Shown: positions 16,660-21,017 of the stretch, piece after piece
Numbering within the stretch: position 1 is the first letter of the stretch
Layout of the letters: each line of letters begins with the position of its first letter
Position numbers and translations under genes: made by a program
Origin: Candidatus Polarisedimenticolia bacterium
GTDB taxonomy: Bacteria; Acidobacteriota; Polarisedimenticolia; Gp22-AA2; AA152
Direction of reading: 5' to 3'
Length of the DNA stretch: 35,207 bases
NCBI GenBank assembly: GCA_036004685.1
Contig: DASYRE010000058.1
Coordinates: forward strand, 1-35,207
Notes under the pieces: generated by a model
What the model was told of the DNA's origin: nothing
The model's input: the letters and a program-made list of their open reading frames with translations, nothing else
The model's database searches: none

Positions 16660-18306
16660 TTGGCGCGCGCCTCACGGAGCGTTTCCTGGATCGGACTGCT
16701 GGCGCTGGCGGCATTGTGCGCGGGGCTGTTCGGCTACCGTCTCGGCGGGACCGGCTTCTGGACCGACGAGTCGATCTACGCCCAGACGGCGCGCGAGATG
16801 GCCGGCACCGGGGATTGGATCACGCCGCGCCTGTGCGGCAGCCCCTATCTGATCAAGCCCCCTCTCTATCACTGGCTCGCGGCGGTGTTCTTTCATTTCC
16901 TGGGAGAGAACGAGCTGGCGGGACGGCTGCCGCAGGTGATCGCCGGGCTCGCGGCGGTCCTGGCGGTCGCGTCGATCGCCGGGCGGGCCTTCGGAAGAGG
17001 CGCGGGGCTCCTGGCAGGCGCCGCCCTGGCCACCTCGCCCGGATTCGCGGTGGGCGCGCGGGTGGCGGGGATGGACGCTCTGCTCACTTCCGGCATCACC
17101 CTCTGCCTCGTCTTCTTCTTTCGCGGCTACCGGGAGCCGGCCCGGCGCGCCGCCTGGTTCCTGGCTTCCGGCTTCGGCGCGGGGATCGCGGCGCTGGCGA
17201 AAGGACCGTCGGGGGCGGCGATTCCGGCGCTGGTGATCCTGGTCTTCCTGATCAGGCAAAGGGAGATCAAGCTGGCGGGCTCGAATGCGGCGCTGCGCGG
17301 CGCCGCCATCTGCCTGGTGACCGCCGCCTTCTGGTACGTTCCGGTCTGGATTCAGAATGGCAGCCGGTTCGCGCGCGTCTTCTGGCTTAAGAACAACCTG
17401 GCGCGGCTGGGCGAGCCGGTGTCCGATCATGGCGGCCCTGTCACCTACTACCTGCCGGTCTTCCTCATCGCCTTCCTGCCGTGGAGCTTTCCGTTCGCGA
17501 TCACCGCGGCGCGAGCCCTGACGCGGCTGGTCCGCCGGGCGCCCGAGGCGGCGCCCGATCCCCTGGCGGAGCTGGCGTGGTCGTGGTTCCTGGCCCCTTT
17601 CGTCTTCTACTCCCTGATCGCGACGAAGCTGCCCGGCTATCTGCTGCCCGTCTTCCCCGCCGCCGCGATCCTGGTGGCGCGCGAGTGGGATCGGTGGCGC
17701 GCGGAGCGCCGGGATCGATGGGGAAAGTCGTTCGCGGTCGCCGCCGCGCTGGGGGCGGCGTCGCTTCCGGGGGTCGCGCTGGCGGTGCCGTTCCTCCTAC
17801 AGCATCGGTACGGCATTCCGCCGGGCCGGATCTGGCTCTATCCGGCGCTGAGCTTCGTCTTCGCGGTCGCGGCCGTCTTCTCGGCCCTCCTGCCGCGGGG
17901 CCGGCTGAGGGCCGCCTGGTGGGTGGCCGCCGCTGGCGCCTTCGTCCTGGGCTTCGTGCGCTTCGCCATCGTGCCCGCGGCGCCTTACGAGTCGATGCGG
18001 GAGATGACACGGCGCCTGTTGACGCTGCGCGACGCCGGCTACCCGGTGGCGCTGGTGGGAGAGCACCTCAAGGGAACGCTTTTCTACACCGACTGCTCGG
18101 TTCCCCATCCAAGGGAGATCAATGACCTGCCGCGGCCTCAGGCGCGAGGCGGGCCGGTCTTTTGCCTGGTGAAGGAGCGCTTCCGGCCCGATCTCGAGGG
18201 CTGGGCCTCCCGCGGCCGCTTCACGCTGCGCACCGTCGTGAGCCGCGGGCCGCTCTCGCTCGTGGAGATCTCCCGGGCATCCCCATCCGCCCCGCCGGAT
18301 TCGTAG
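16660..18306 (+). CDS. ArnT/PMT-like membrane glycosyltransferase
   Basis: A 548-residue polytopic membrane protein of the ArnT/PMT_2 (GT-C) family, which transfers a sugar from a polyprenyl phosphate donor on the outer face of the membrane. The first loop carries FWTDESIYAQTAREM (34-48; Asp36-Glu37 metal/catalytic pair) and GDWITPRLCGSPYLIKPPLY (51-70), the classic ArnT string. Ten or more hydrophobic helices follow, then a soluble C-terminal part from about residue 445. The TTG start at 16660 is chosen because AGGAG lies six bases upstream and the N-terminal helix begins there; the frame further upstream does not look coding. The target could be lipid A, a glycolipid or a protein. Confidence 0.83.
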   Translation: MARASRSVSWIGLLALAALCAGLFGYRLGGTGFWTDESIYAQTAREMAGTGDWITPRLCGSPYLIKPPLYHWLAAVFFHFLGENELAGRLPQVIAGLAAVLAVASIAGRAFGRGAGLLAGAALATSPGFAVGARVAGMDALLTSGITLCLVFFFRGYREPARRAAWFLASGFGAGIAALAKGPSGAAIPALVILVFLIRQREIKLAGSNAALRGAAICLVTAAFWYVPVWIQNGSRFARVFWLKNNLARLGEPVSDHGGPVTYYLPVFLIAFLPWSFPFAITAARALTRLVRRAPEAAPDPLAELAWSWFLAPFVFYSLIATKLPGYLLPVFPAAAILVAREWDRWRAERRDRWGKSFAVAAALGAASLPGVALAVPFLLQHRYGIPPGRIWLYPALSFVFAVAAVFSALLPRGRLRAAWWVAAAGAFVLGFVRFAIVPAAPYESMREMTRRLLTLRDAGYPVALVGEHLKGTLFYTDCSVPHPREINDLPRPQARGGPVFCLVKERFRPDLEGWASRGRFTLRTVVSRGPLSLVEISRASPSAPPDS

Positions 18307-18385
18307 CGCTTGCCGGATGGGCGCGGCGGGAAGAGAATGACAGGCGTGGTGGCATGGGCCGGAACGGCATCGAGGAGGACCGACG

Positions 18386-18913
18386 ATGAACAAGACGATG
18401 GGCCTGCTGTTCGCCGCGCTCGGATACGCGGCCGGCTCCGTGTTCAGCGGCAAAGGGCCGGAGGCAGGCGACCCCGCGCCTTCCTTTACCCTTCCCGGTT
18501 CCGATGGAAAGACCTATTCGCTTGCGGATTATCAAGGGAAGAAGGCCGTGGTGGTCGCCTGGTTTCCGAAAGCGTTCACCGGCGGCTGAACTTCCGAATG
18601 CGCGTCGCTCCGTGCGAGCGGCGGCAAGATCCGAGAGTTCGACGTCGCCTATTTCGCCGCGAGCACCGACGATCCCGAGACCAATCGGAGGTTCGCGGAA
18701 TCGCTTCGTCTCGATTATCCCATCCTGAGCGACCCCGAGAAGAGCACGGCGCGCGCCTATGGCGCGCTGCGCGGAAGCGTCGCCGCGCGCTGGACCTTTT
18801 ACATCGGCGCGGACGGCAAAGTCCTCTACGTCGACCGCGAAGTGAAGGCGGCACAGGCGGGGGACGACGTGGCGCGGCGGCTGGCGGAGCTGGGGATCGC
18901 CCGGGCGCGCTGA
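18386..18913 (+). CDS. Peroxiredoxin (AhpC/TSA) with in-frame TGA, probable selenoprotein
   Basis: A 175-residue peroxiredoxin if TGA 18587-18589 is read as selenocysteine 68. Before it comes an N-terminal hydrophobic segment ([16 protein letters not shown]), then [20 protein letters not shown] and WFPKAFTGG. The TGA falls exactly where the family has its peroxidatic Cys (FTGG-U-TSEC), and Cys72 follows as a possible resolving residue. After the TGA the same frame continues for 107 family-like residues ([49 protein letters not shown]) to TGA 18911-18913. There is no frameshift and no other defect. GGAGG lies eight bases before the ATG. A hairpin fitting bacterial SECIS rules follows the TGA. 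It would reduce peroxides, perhaps at the membrane or in the periplasm. A nonsense pseudogene is the alternative. Confidence 0.85.
18590..18623 (+). promoter_or_regulatory. Candidate bacterial SECIS element
   Basis: Directly after TGA 18587-18589, CGTCGCTC (18603-18610) pairs with GAGCGGCG (18616-18623) as an 8-bp stem (one G-U pair), closing a 5-base loop CGTGC. The loop begins 21 bases after the UGA and has G as its second base, followed by U. Both agree with the known bacterial pattern: loop 16-37 bases downstream, with a G among the first two loop bases, recognised by SelB. The hairpin is inside the coding frame, as in bacteria generally. Confidence 0.7.
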
Positions 18914-18941
18914 CGAGAAACGAAAGGACAATCGGCGGGGA

Positions 18942-21017
18942 TCAGGATCGGAAGAACCCGCCCAAACGCAGCGCCGATTTCTTCCTGGGCGCGGGCACCG
19001 TCACGGGCTCCGGAGGATCGCCCTTCTCCAGGGCGGCTGCCGGCGCCGCGGGATCGGGAGCCGCGGCGGCGGGTTGGACTGAGGATCCGGACGCCTCCGG
19101 CGGATCGGCCGCCACGAGCCGCCTCGCGGCTGTGACTTTTTCGAGAATCGCCCGCGCCTGCCGAACGAGCGCCGCCGTGTCGATTCCCGCCTCTTCCTGC
19201 TGCTCGCGTCGCGACCCGTGATAGATCCAGCGATCCGGAAGCCCCAGGCGAACCACGCCCTGGGTCGGCAGCCCCATTTCGTGGCACGCCTCCAGGACGC
19301 AGCTTCCGAACCCCCCCGCGACGTGATGGTCCTCCACCGTGAGGATCGGGATGCCGCTCTCGACGAGAGCGCGGAGCCGTTCGCGATCGACCGGCTTGGC
19401 GAACCGCGCGTCATAGACGGCGATCGAATGTCCCAGCTTCTCCAGCTCGGAGCGCGCCGCCAGCGCGGTGTTCGCCGGAAAGCCGTAGGCGAAGACGGCG
19501 AGGTCGCTCCCCTCGGCCAGAAGGTGGGCCTTCCCCAGCTCGAACGGCGGCACGGGGCCGGCGGCGGGCTCCGGGACCTTCTCCCGGGGGTAACGCACCG
19601 CCGAGGGGCCGGCGTCGTAGAGGCGCATGAACTCCAGCGCCGCCCGCAGGGTCGGCTCGTCGCGCGCCGCCAGAAGGACCATCCCCGGCAGGCCCCTCAG
19701 GAAGGCGACGTCGAGGAAGCCGTGGTGGACGGCGCCGTCCCCGCCGACGAGGCCGGCGCGGTCGAGACAGAAGCGCACCGGCAGCCCCTGCAGCGCCACC
19801 TCCTGGAAGACCTGGTCGAAGGCGCGCTGGAGGAAGGTCGAATAGATCGCGGCGAACGGGCGCAGGCCCGTCTTCGCCATCCCGGCGCACATGTCGACGG
19901 CGTGCGATTCGGCGATCCCGACGTCGAACGTCCGCGCGGGGAACCGCGGCATCACCTTGGCGAGGCCGGTGCCGTCGGCCATCCCCGCCGTGACGGCGAT
20001 GACGCCCGGATCGCGCTCCATCAGATCGATCATCGCGTCGCCGAACGCGGCGGTGAAGGAGCGCCCGTCCTTGTGGATCTCGGCGCGGCAGCCGGTGACC
20101 TGGAAGGGCGAAGGGGAATGGAAGGTCACGGGATCGTCGGAGGAGAAGTCGAAACCCTTCCCCTTGATCGTCTTCACGTGCAGCAGCACGGGGCGCTCGA
20201 TCTCGCGGACCTCGCGAAGCACCTCGACGAGCGGTCCCAGCTCGTGCCCGTCCATCGGCCCGATGCAGAGCATGCCGAAGTGATCGAAAAGGTGCGTGTG
20301 CTCCAGCGCCGCCTTCGTGACCTCACCCAGGCGGTGGTAGATCTCTTCGAGCTTCTGCGCGACCGGAACGTGCTTGAGGACTTCGCGGGCCCGATCCTTG
20401 AGATCGGTGAAGCGGGGGTTGACGCGAATCCGGTCGAAATAGCCCGCCAGCGCCCCTTGCGGCTTGCCGATCGACATGCCGTTGTCGTTCAGGACGACCA
20501 GAAACTGCCGCCTGAGCGTGCCGGCGTTGTTGAGCCCCTCCATGGAGACCCCGTTGACGATGGCGGCGTCGCCGACGAGGACCACGACCTTGCGGTGCGC
20601 TTCGCCGCGGTGCAGGTCGCCCCGGGCCATGCCGATGCCCGTCGAGACGCCCGTGCCGGCGTGGCCCACGCTGAAGAGATCGTAGGGACTCTCCAGCGGC
20701 TCGGGAAAGCCCGACATCCCTCCCTTCTGGCGGAGCCGGCCGAGGAGAGGAAGCCGGCCGGTGAGCAGCTTGTGGGTGTAACACTGGTGCCCGACGTCGA
20801 AGAGGAGGCGGTCGGTCCCGAAGTCGAAGACGTAATGCAGCGCGAGGGTCAGCTCGACGACCCCCAGGTTCGGCGCGAGGTGCCCGCCGCCGCGGGCGAC
20901 CTGCTCGCAGATCGCCTGGCGGATCTCGCGCGCCAACTCCTCCAGCTCCGGAAGCGTCAGCCCCTTCAGCCGCGCGGGGGTCAATCCCTCGTCGAGAAAC
21001 CGGTTCTCTTTCATCAT
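18942..21017 (-). CDS. dxs: 1-deoxy-D-xylulose-5-phosphate synthase
   Basis: A 691-residue thiamine-diphosphate transketolase-like enzyme that joins pyruvate and glyceraldehyde 3-phosphate, the first step of the MEP isoprenoid pathway. HLAPNLGVVELTLALHYVFDF, DVGHQCYTHKLLTGR and HAGTGVSTGIGMARG are DXS marks. The cofactor site reads VGDAAIVNGVSMEGLNNAG and then LNDNGMSIGKP; YSTFLQRAFDQV, DRAGLVGGDGAVHHG and EDHHVAGGFGS complete domains II and III. About 60 Pro/Ala-rich residues after the conserved end (AADPPEASGSS onward) are beyond usual DXS length. It closes the hopanoid operon, so precursor supply is tied to hopanoid synthesis. ATG 21017 overlaps the squalene synthase stop; ATG 21014 is better spaced from GGGAGG. 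Confidence 0.95.
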   Translation of the reverse strand: MMKENRFLDEGLTPARLKGLTLPELEELAREIRQAICEQVARGGGHLAPNLGVVELTLALHYVFDFGTDRLLFDVGHQCYTHKLLTGRLPLLGRLRQKGGMSGFPEPLESPYDLFSVGHAGTGVSTGIGMARGDLHRGEAHRKVVVLVGDAAIVNGVSMEGLNNAGTLRRQFLVVLNDNGMSIGKPQGALAGYFDRIRVNPRFTDLKDRAREVLKHVPVAQKLEEIYHRLGEVTKAALEHTHLFDHFGMLCIGPMDGHELGPLVEVLREVREIERPVLLHVKTIKGKGFDFSSDDPVTFHSPSPFQVTGCRAEIHKDGRSFTAAFGDAMIDLMERDPGVIAVTAGMADGTGLAKVMPRFPARTFDVGIAESHAVDMCAGMAKTGLRPFAAIYSTFLQRAFDQVFQEVALQGLPVRFCLDRAGLVGGDGAVHHGFLDVAFLRGLPGMVLLAARDEPTLRAALEFMRLYDAGPSAVRYPREKVPEPAAGPVPPFELGKAHLLAEGSDLAVFAYGFPANTALAARSELEKLGHSIAVYDARFAKPVDRERLRALVESGIPILTVEDHHVAGGFGSCVLEACHEMGLPTQGVVRLGLPDRWIYHGSRREQQEEAGIDTAALVRQARAILEKVTAARRLVAADPPEASGSSVQPAAAAPDPAAPAAALEKGDPPEPVTVPAPRKKSALRLGGFFRS

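Follow-up and report, generated by a model that had tools for sequence, protein, structure and literature searches.

The 35,207-nucleotide stretch of DNA that was analyzed (the window) almost certainly carries a genuine selenocysteine (Sec) peroxiredoxin gene at positions 18386 to 18913 of the forward strand. As judged from the sequence, this gene very probably reads through an in-frame UGA to place selenium at the catalytic site. The fuller proposal, in which the product is exported and works through a UxxxC pair (U denotes Sec), is put forward with moderate confidence.

The reading frame begins with an ATG at 18386, 7 nt downstream of a Shine-Dalgarno-like GAGGAGG that can be read directly in the sequence (18372 to 18378, forward strand). 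It contains a lone internal TGA, codon 68 (18587 to 18589), and ends with a TGA at 18911 to 18913. The 107 sense codons that the initial annotation had counted between the two are there, and its coordinates were exact. It had also claimed that the internal TGA replaces the catalytic Cys of an otherwise intact peroxiredoxin. When this TGA was read as Cys, the 175-residue product matched the Pfam AhpC-TSA model (PF00578) with 105 bits (cut-off, 26) over residues 28 to 148; the match runs across the TGA, and codon 68 was confirmed as the peroxidatic position. Standard annotation would truncate the gene to a 67-residue fragment. A PMT-type glycosyltransferase gene lies upstream and dxs lies downstream on the opposite strand. 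No cluster of neighboring genes recurred in more than 5 of the 102 loci of the close family described below, and the neighbors gave no hint of a reductant. A scan for promoters and terminators around the gene returned no candidates. Rfam matches on 18300 to 19000 were all below threshold (PhotoRC-I, 23.5 of 45 bits) and were taken as chance.

A search of relatives and GTDB species for homologues yielded 110 peroxiredoxin loci, 102 of which form a close family with 95 distinct members (66 Sec genes and 29 Cys genes). Codon 68 is TGA in 73 of the 102 loci and TGC or TGT in the other 29, and none has a further TGA within the aligned stretch. Thus, alignment at residue 68 revealed either a TGA or a Cys codon, and scattered stops were absent. 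The existence of Cys homologues indicates that Sec is not indispensable. The close homologues come from Acidobacteriota, Planctomycetota, and Verrucomicrobiota; a few records bear other taxon names and may be mislabeled. For example, four loci (L083, L089, L098, and L101) have titles naming Akkermansia muciniphila or Klebsiella pneumoniae, which are probably wrong because in the tree these genes group with, or nearly match, environmental Verrucomicrobiota bins. A search of plasmids recovered only relatives with less than 60% identity, mostly Bcp where annotated.

Sec and Cys members are intermixed in the tree. Parsimony required 14 changes between Sec and Cys, counted in either direction, and well-supported branches force at least seven switches. 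The well-supported forks that join a Sec gene and a Cys gene include L090/L120 and L088/L108.

The AlphaFold2 model of the product, built with 55 sequences, had a mean pLDDT of 93, with values below 60 for residues 1 to 20. This N terminus (approximately residues 1 to 22, encoded by 18386 to 18451) has a hydrophobic start that resembles a signal peptide when judged by eye. The protein had been described as apparently membrane-targeted. The hydrophobic N terminus stands, but it is better read as an export signal because nearly all homologues have signal-peptide-like N termini, also judged by eye, directly before the peroxiredoxin domain. These starts occur in all three phyla, and one homologue (L056) has a lipobox, LIGC. 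Thus, the best reading is an extracytoplasmic enzyme, and from its sequence the protein is probably exported. The signal-like segment of the window protein is short and weaker than those of most homologues, features that would suit a Sec peroxiredoxin retained in the cytoplasm or at the cytoplasmic membrane, with the N terminus serving as an anchor or resulting from a misassigned start. In view of the hydrophobic starts across three phyla and the lipobox, this location is unlikely, yet it is the alternative to which we give the most weight.

The likely exported protein has the active site of a peroxiredoxin. P61, T65, residue 68, C72, and R135 are invariant in the 55 aligned sequences, and the first three belong to a PxxxTxxU motif (P61-K-A-F-T65-G-G-U68, 18566 to 18589). 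Arg135 (codon at 18788 to 18790) is presumably the peroxiredoxin active-site Arg, by analogy with other peroxiredoxins. Cys72 (codon at 18599 to 18601), four residues past position 68, is present in all 95 distinct homologues (66 of 66 Sec genes and 29 of 29 Cys genes) and is a candidate resolving residue. The nearest solved folds include Bcp1 and Bcp4 of Sulfolobus solfataricus and BcpB and AhpE of Mycobacterium tuberculosis, and sequence comparison agrees. PxxxTxxU is the motif named for Sec peroxiredoxins (PMC13188914).

It is conceivable, with a rather low probability, that the selenoprotein is not a peroxidase and is instead an exported UxxxC thiol oxidoreductase of the peroxiredoxin fold that acts on protein disulfides. 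The invariance of the UxxxC pair and the likely export would fit such a role, and peroxiredoxin-like selenoproteins with UxxC and a predicted oxidoreductase function have been catalogued (PMC13188914). However, PxxxTxxU together with the invariant Arg constitutes the peroxide-binding site of peroxiredoxins, the residue that Sec replaces is the peroxidatic one, and the nearest folds are peroxiredoxins.

Among known peroxiredoxins, those of the PrxQ/Bcp type (Escherichia coli Bcp, Deinococcus radiodurans DR0846, and S. solfataricus Bcp1) are closest in sequence and fold. Bcp is cytoplasmic. The UxxxC spacing of the window protein differs from the CXXXXC of PrxQ, in which the resolving Cys is five residues past the peroxidatic one (PMC6590489), and the scores of the protein against the PrxQ/Bcp NCBIfam equivalogs were below cut-off (72.3 of 140 and 66.7 of 260). 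M. tuberculosis AhpE is also near in sequence and fold; it is a 1-Cys peroxiredoxin according to its PDB title, in contrast to the Sec with a second Cys at +4 in the window protein. PrxU (NF040737), which we take to be a Sec peroxiredoxin, was a weak match (30.5 bits; cut-off, 270), and Prx-SUH (NF045827) scored 21.2 of 298. No NCBIfam model, PrxU and Prx-SUH included, reached its cut-off. A literature search on CXXXC peroxiredoxins found no matching paper.

The initial annotation had pointed to a hairpin at the expected distance after the TGA. The hairpin is present within the coding region (arms 18604 to 18610 and 18616 to 18622, forward strand), with a 7-bp stem and a CGUGC loop (18611 to 18615) that starts 21 nt after the UGA. 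The 19-nt element folds with −9.7 kcal/mol. Published rules for bacterial SECIS elements (bSECIS) specify an apical loop of 3 to 9 nt with a G in the first two positions, an upper stem of 4 to 16 bp, a distance of 16 to 37 nt after the UGA, and a minimum free energy of at most −7.5 kcal/mol (PMC13188914), and the window hairpin conforms to all of those tested (loop, stem, distance, and energy). Folding thus bore out the hairpin, but not its significance in isolation, because the hairpin alone is not unusually stable (z = 0.11 for the 51-nt fold and −2.4 for a 54-nt version). The same seven pairs arise in 2.6% of synonymous recodings of the window sequence.

Comparison with relatives demonstrates that the hairpin is more than chance because it is conserved in their Sec genes and not in the Cys genes. 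The stem common to the 66 distinct Sec genes pairs positions +15 to +21 after the UGA with +27 to +33 and encloses a five-base loop, which is CGUGA in 44 genes, CGUGC in 13, CGUGG in 2, and of other sequence in 7. Every one of the 66 has G at the second loop position. The full set of seven pairs is present in 51 of the 66 Sec genes versus 0 of 29 Cys genes (Fisher's exact test, P = 1e-13), compared with a mean of 2.3 and a maximum of 9 expected from 1,000 trials of synonymous recoding of the Sec peptides. In an alignment of 51 Sec genes, 97.2% of the pair cells are formed, and 16 cells represent double changes (shuffle mean, 2.5; 0 of 500 shuffles reached 16). The compensatory pairs include C-G to U-A (6 cases), G-C to A-U (5 cases), and C-G to G-C (3 cases). 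In contrast, 24 Cys genes had 54.8% of the pair cells formed, with no excess over shuffles. Codon and residue usage follow the same division. Nearly all Sec genes use CGU for the loop Arg, and the Cys genes that keep the Arg mostly use CGC, CGA, or CGG; 56 of 66 Sec genes encode Ser at +10, versus 4 of 29 Cys genes. One Cys homologue (L092, 5190 to 5234) retains most of the hairpin, including a CGUGA loop, apparently left over from a recent switch of Sec to Cys.

The genome from which the window comes (3.84 Mb in 62 contigs, 100% complete and 1.5% contaminated) encodes all four components for Sec decoding that were sought: a tRNA-Sec on contig C49 (75 bits; anticodon TCA according to ARAGORN), selB on C19 (327 bits, both pieces together), selA on C11 (564 bits), and selD on C8 (369 bits), the three protein genes all exceeding their cut-offs. 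A second match to the tRNA-Sec model that was over the cut-off, on contig C54, was rejected because ARAGORN identified it as tRNA-Ser(CGA). The source lineage is probably Acidobacteriota, given that among homologues with an organism name the nearest are from metagenome-assembled genomes of Acidobacteria. Sec machinery is widespread in this lineage, with selA over the cut-off in 39 of 41 genomes (this genome and 38 of 40 relatives). selA exceeded the cut-off in 23 of the 25 genomes carrying the peroxiredoxin as a Sec copy versus 9 of the 25 carrying it as a Cys copy (P = 7e-5), a comparison in which many of the genomes are incomplete metagenome-assembled genomes and a Cys genome may encode other selenoproteins. 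One of the two remaining Sec-copy genomes, and one further Cys-copy genome, have selA split over contigs. The homologue codons, the Sec machinery, and the conserved, covarying SECIS all support Sec at the peroxidatic site, as was first suggested from the single sequence.

Another possibility is that the UGA is leaky or is read as a different amino acid, such as Trp, through a changed code or a suppressor. Any read-through would keep the frame open, but homologues that lack the UGA invariably have Cys in its place, the genome encodes tRNA-Sec, selA, selB, and selD, and the gene terminates at a TGA of its own (18911 to 18913), so that UGA is still a stop where no hairpin follows; the chance of such decoding is minimal. 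It could also be supposed that the gene is an ordinary Cys peroxiredoxin in which a nonsense mutation (making it a pseudogene) or an error in sequencing (making it an artifact) produced the TGA; this would need only the one base that separates UGA from TGC and TGT and was compatible with the single sequence and its unremarkable hairpin. This explanation, which the initial annotation already considered unlikely, is refuted by the homologue survey: many independent assemblies contributed the 73 of 102 homologues that share this UGA, and their aligned frames contain no other TGA. Further evidence against it is the covarying SECIS, which is restricted to the UGA genes, and the complete Sec machinery in the genome.

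We infer that Sec insertion in the cell would proceed with SelB bound to the hairpin at 18604 to 18622, bringing Sec-tRNA(UCA) to the UGA at 18587. Translation would then run on to 18910 and yield the 175-residue product, a predicted Bcp/PrxQ-AhpE-type peroxiredoxin that contains a TxxU site and is most likely exported. Sec68 would attack a peroxide substrate and be converted to a selenenic acid, and Cys72 would probably resolve the oxidized Sec68 as a selenenylsulfide. U68 and C72 both lie within helix 66-77 of the model. As positions i and i+4 of one helix, they would need local unwinding to form a bond. An extracytoplasmic dithiol reductant would then recycle the selenenylsulfide.

Sec peroxiredoxins (TxxU, COG1225/PF00578) are an established selenoprotein family (PMC1088965, PMC1794560, PMC13188914), listed in catalogues of 2006 (PMC1794560) and 2026 (PMC13188914). 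Therefore, the window gene is a further member of a known family. It shares with the published members the peroxiredoxin domain, PxxxTxxU, the peroxidatic Sec, and a UGA with a downstream bSECIS. Its clade may differ from them in being probably exported, in the invariant Cys at +4, and in its occurrence in three phyla, and the exported UxxxC subfamily is what may be new. We consider it reasonably probable that these genes represent an unnamed, exported UxxxC subfamily spread over three phyla. In this reading, the SECIS overlaps the helix that follows the active site and limits the choice of codons and even of amino acids, and repeated exchanges between Sec and Cys have left some of the Cys members, such as L092, with a degenerating SECIS.

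The gene clearly illustrates how a real gene would be truncated by standard annotation. The family supplies paired Sec and Cys enzymes across three phyla and, with its repeated switches, provides a good natural experiment on the retention and loss of selenium in a peroxidase. It is also suited to the study of how an RNA signal within a coding region shapes a protein.

The genome likely encodes at least four selenoproteins, counting the window gene, selD, and two further candidates. selD (L018) has an in-frame TGA in SSGGUAAKLSPE and likely encodes a Sec-containing SelD; the GGA loop of its candidate SECIS begins 17 nt past the UGA, and a different fold has nearly the same stability. A peroxiredoxin gene on contig C41 with one TGA was rejected as a selenoprotein because this TGA is the one that terminates the gene and because Cys occupies the active site. 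No match to formate dehydrogenase alpha exceeded the cut-off in this genome, and no in-frame TGA was found for it. The two further candidates, in both of which the UGA falls on an active-site position, are likely selenoproteins as judged from their sequences. One (L138, contig C36, 148300 to 149900, TGA at 626) is AhpC/TSA-like, with N-terminal hydrophobic segments and a UxxC in FYRGYWUPLCNSEL; a hairpin with an AGUUG loop 16 nt after the UGA would suit a SECIS. The other (L139, contig C54, 4500 to 6300, TGA at 758) is a larger AhpC/TSA-fold protein with hundreds of residues beyond the UGA and has a TlpA/thioredoxin-like domain with a UxxC in LWTTWUGSC; the strong hairpin downstream would also suit a SECIS.

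Four more distant peroxiredoxins from the same phylum (L044, L045, L047, and L049) likewise carry a TGA as their peroxidatic codon, with motifs such as YPKADTPGUTVEAC, FPKADTPGUTIEA, and FTAGUTKEM. Thus, several Sec peroxiredoxin subfamilies seem to coexist.
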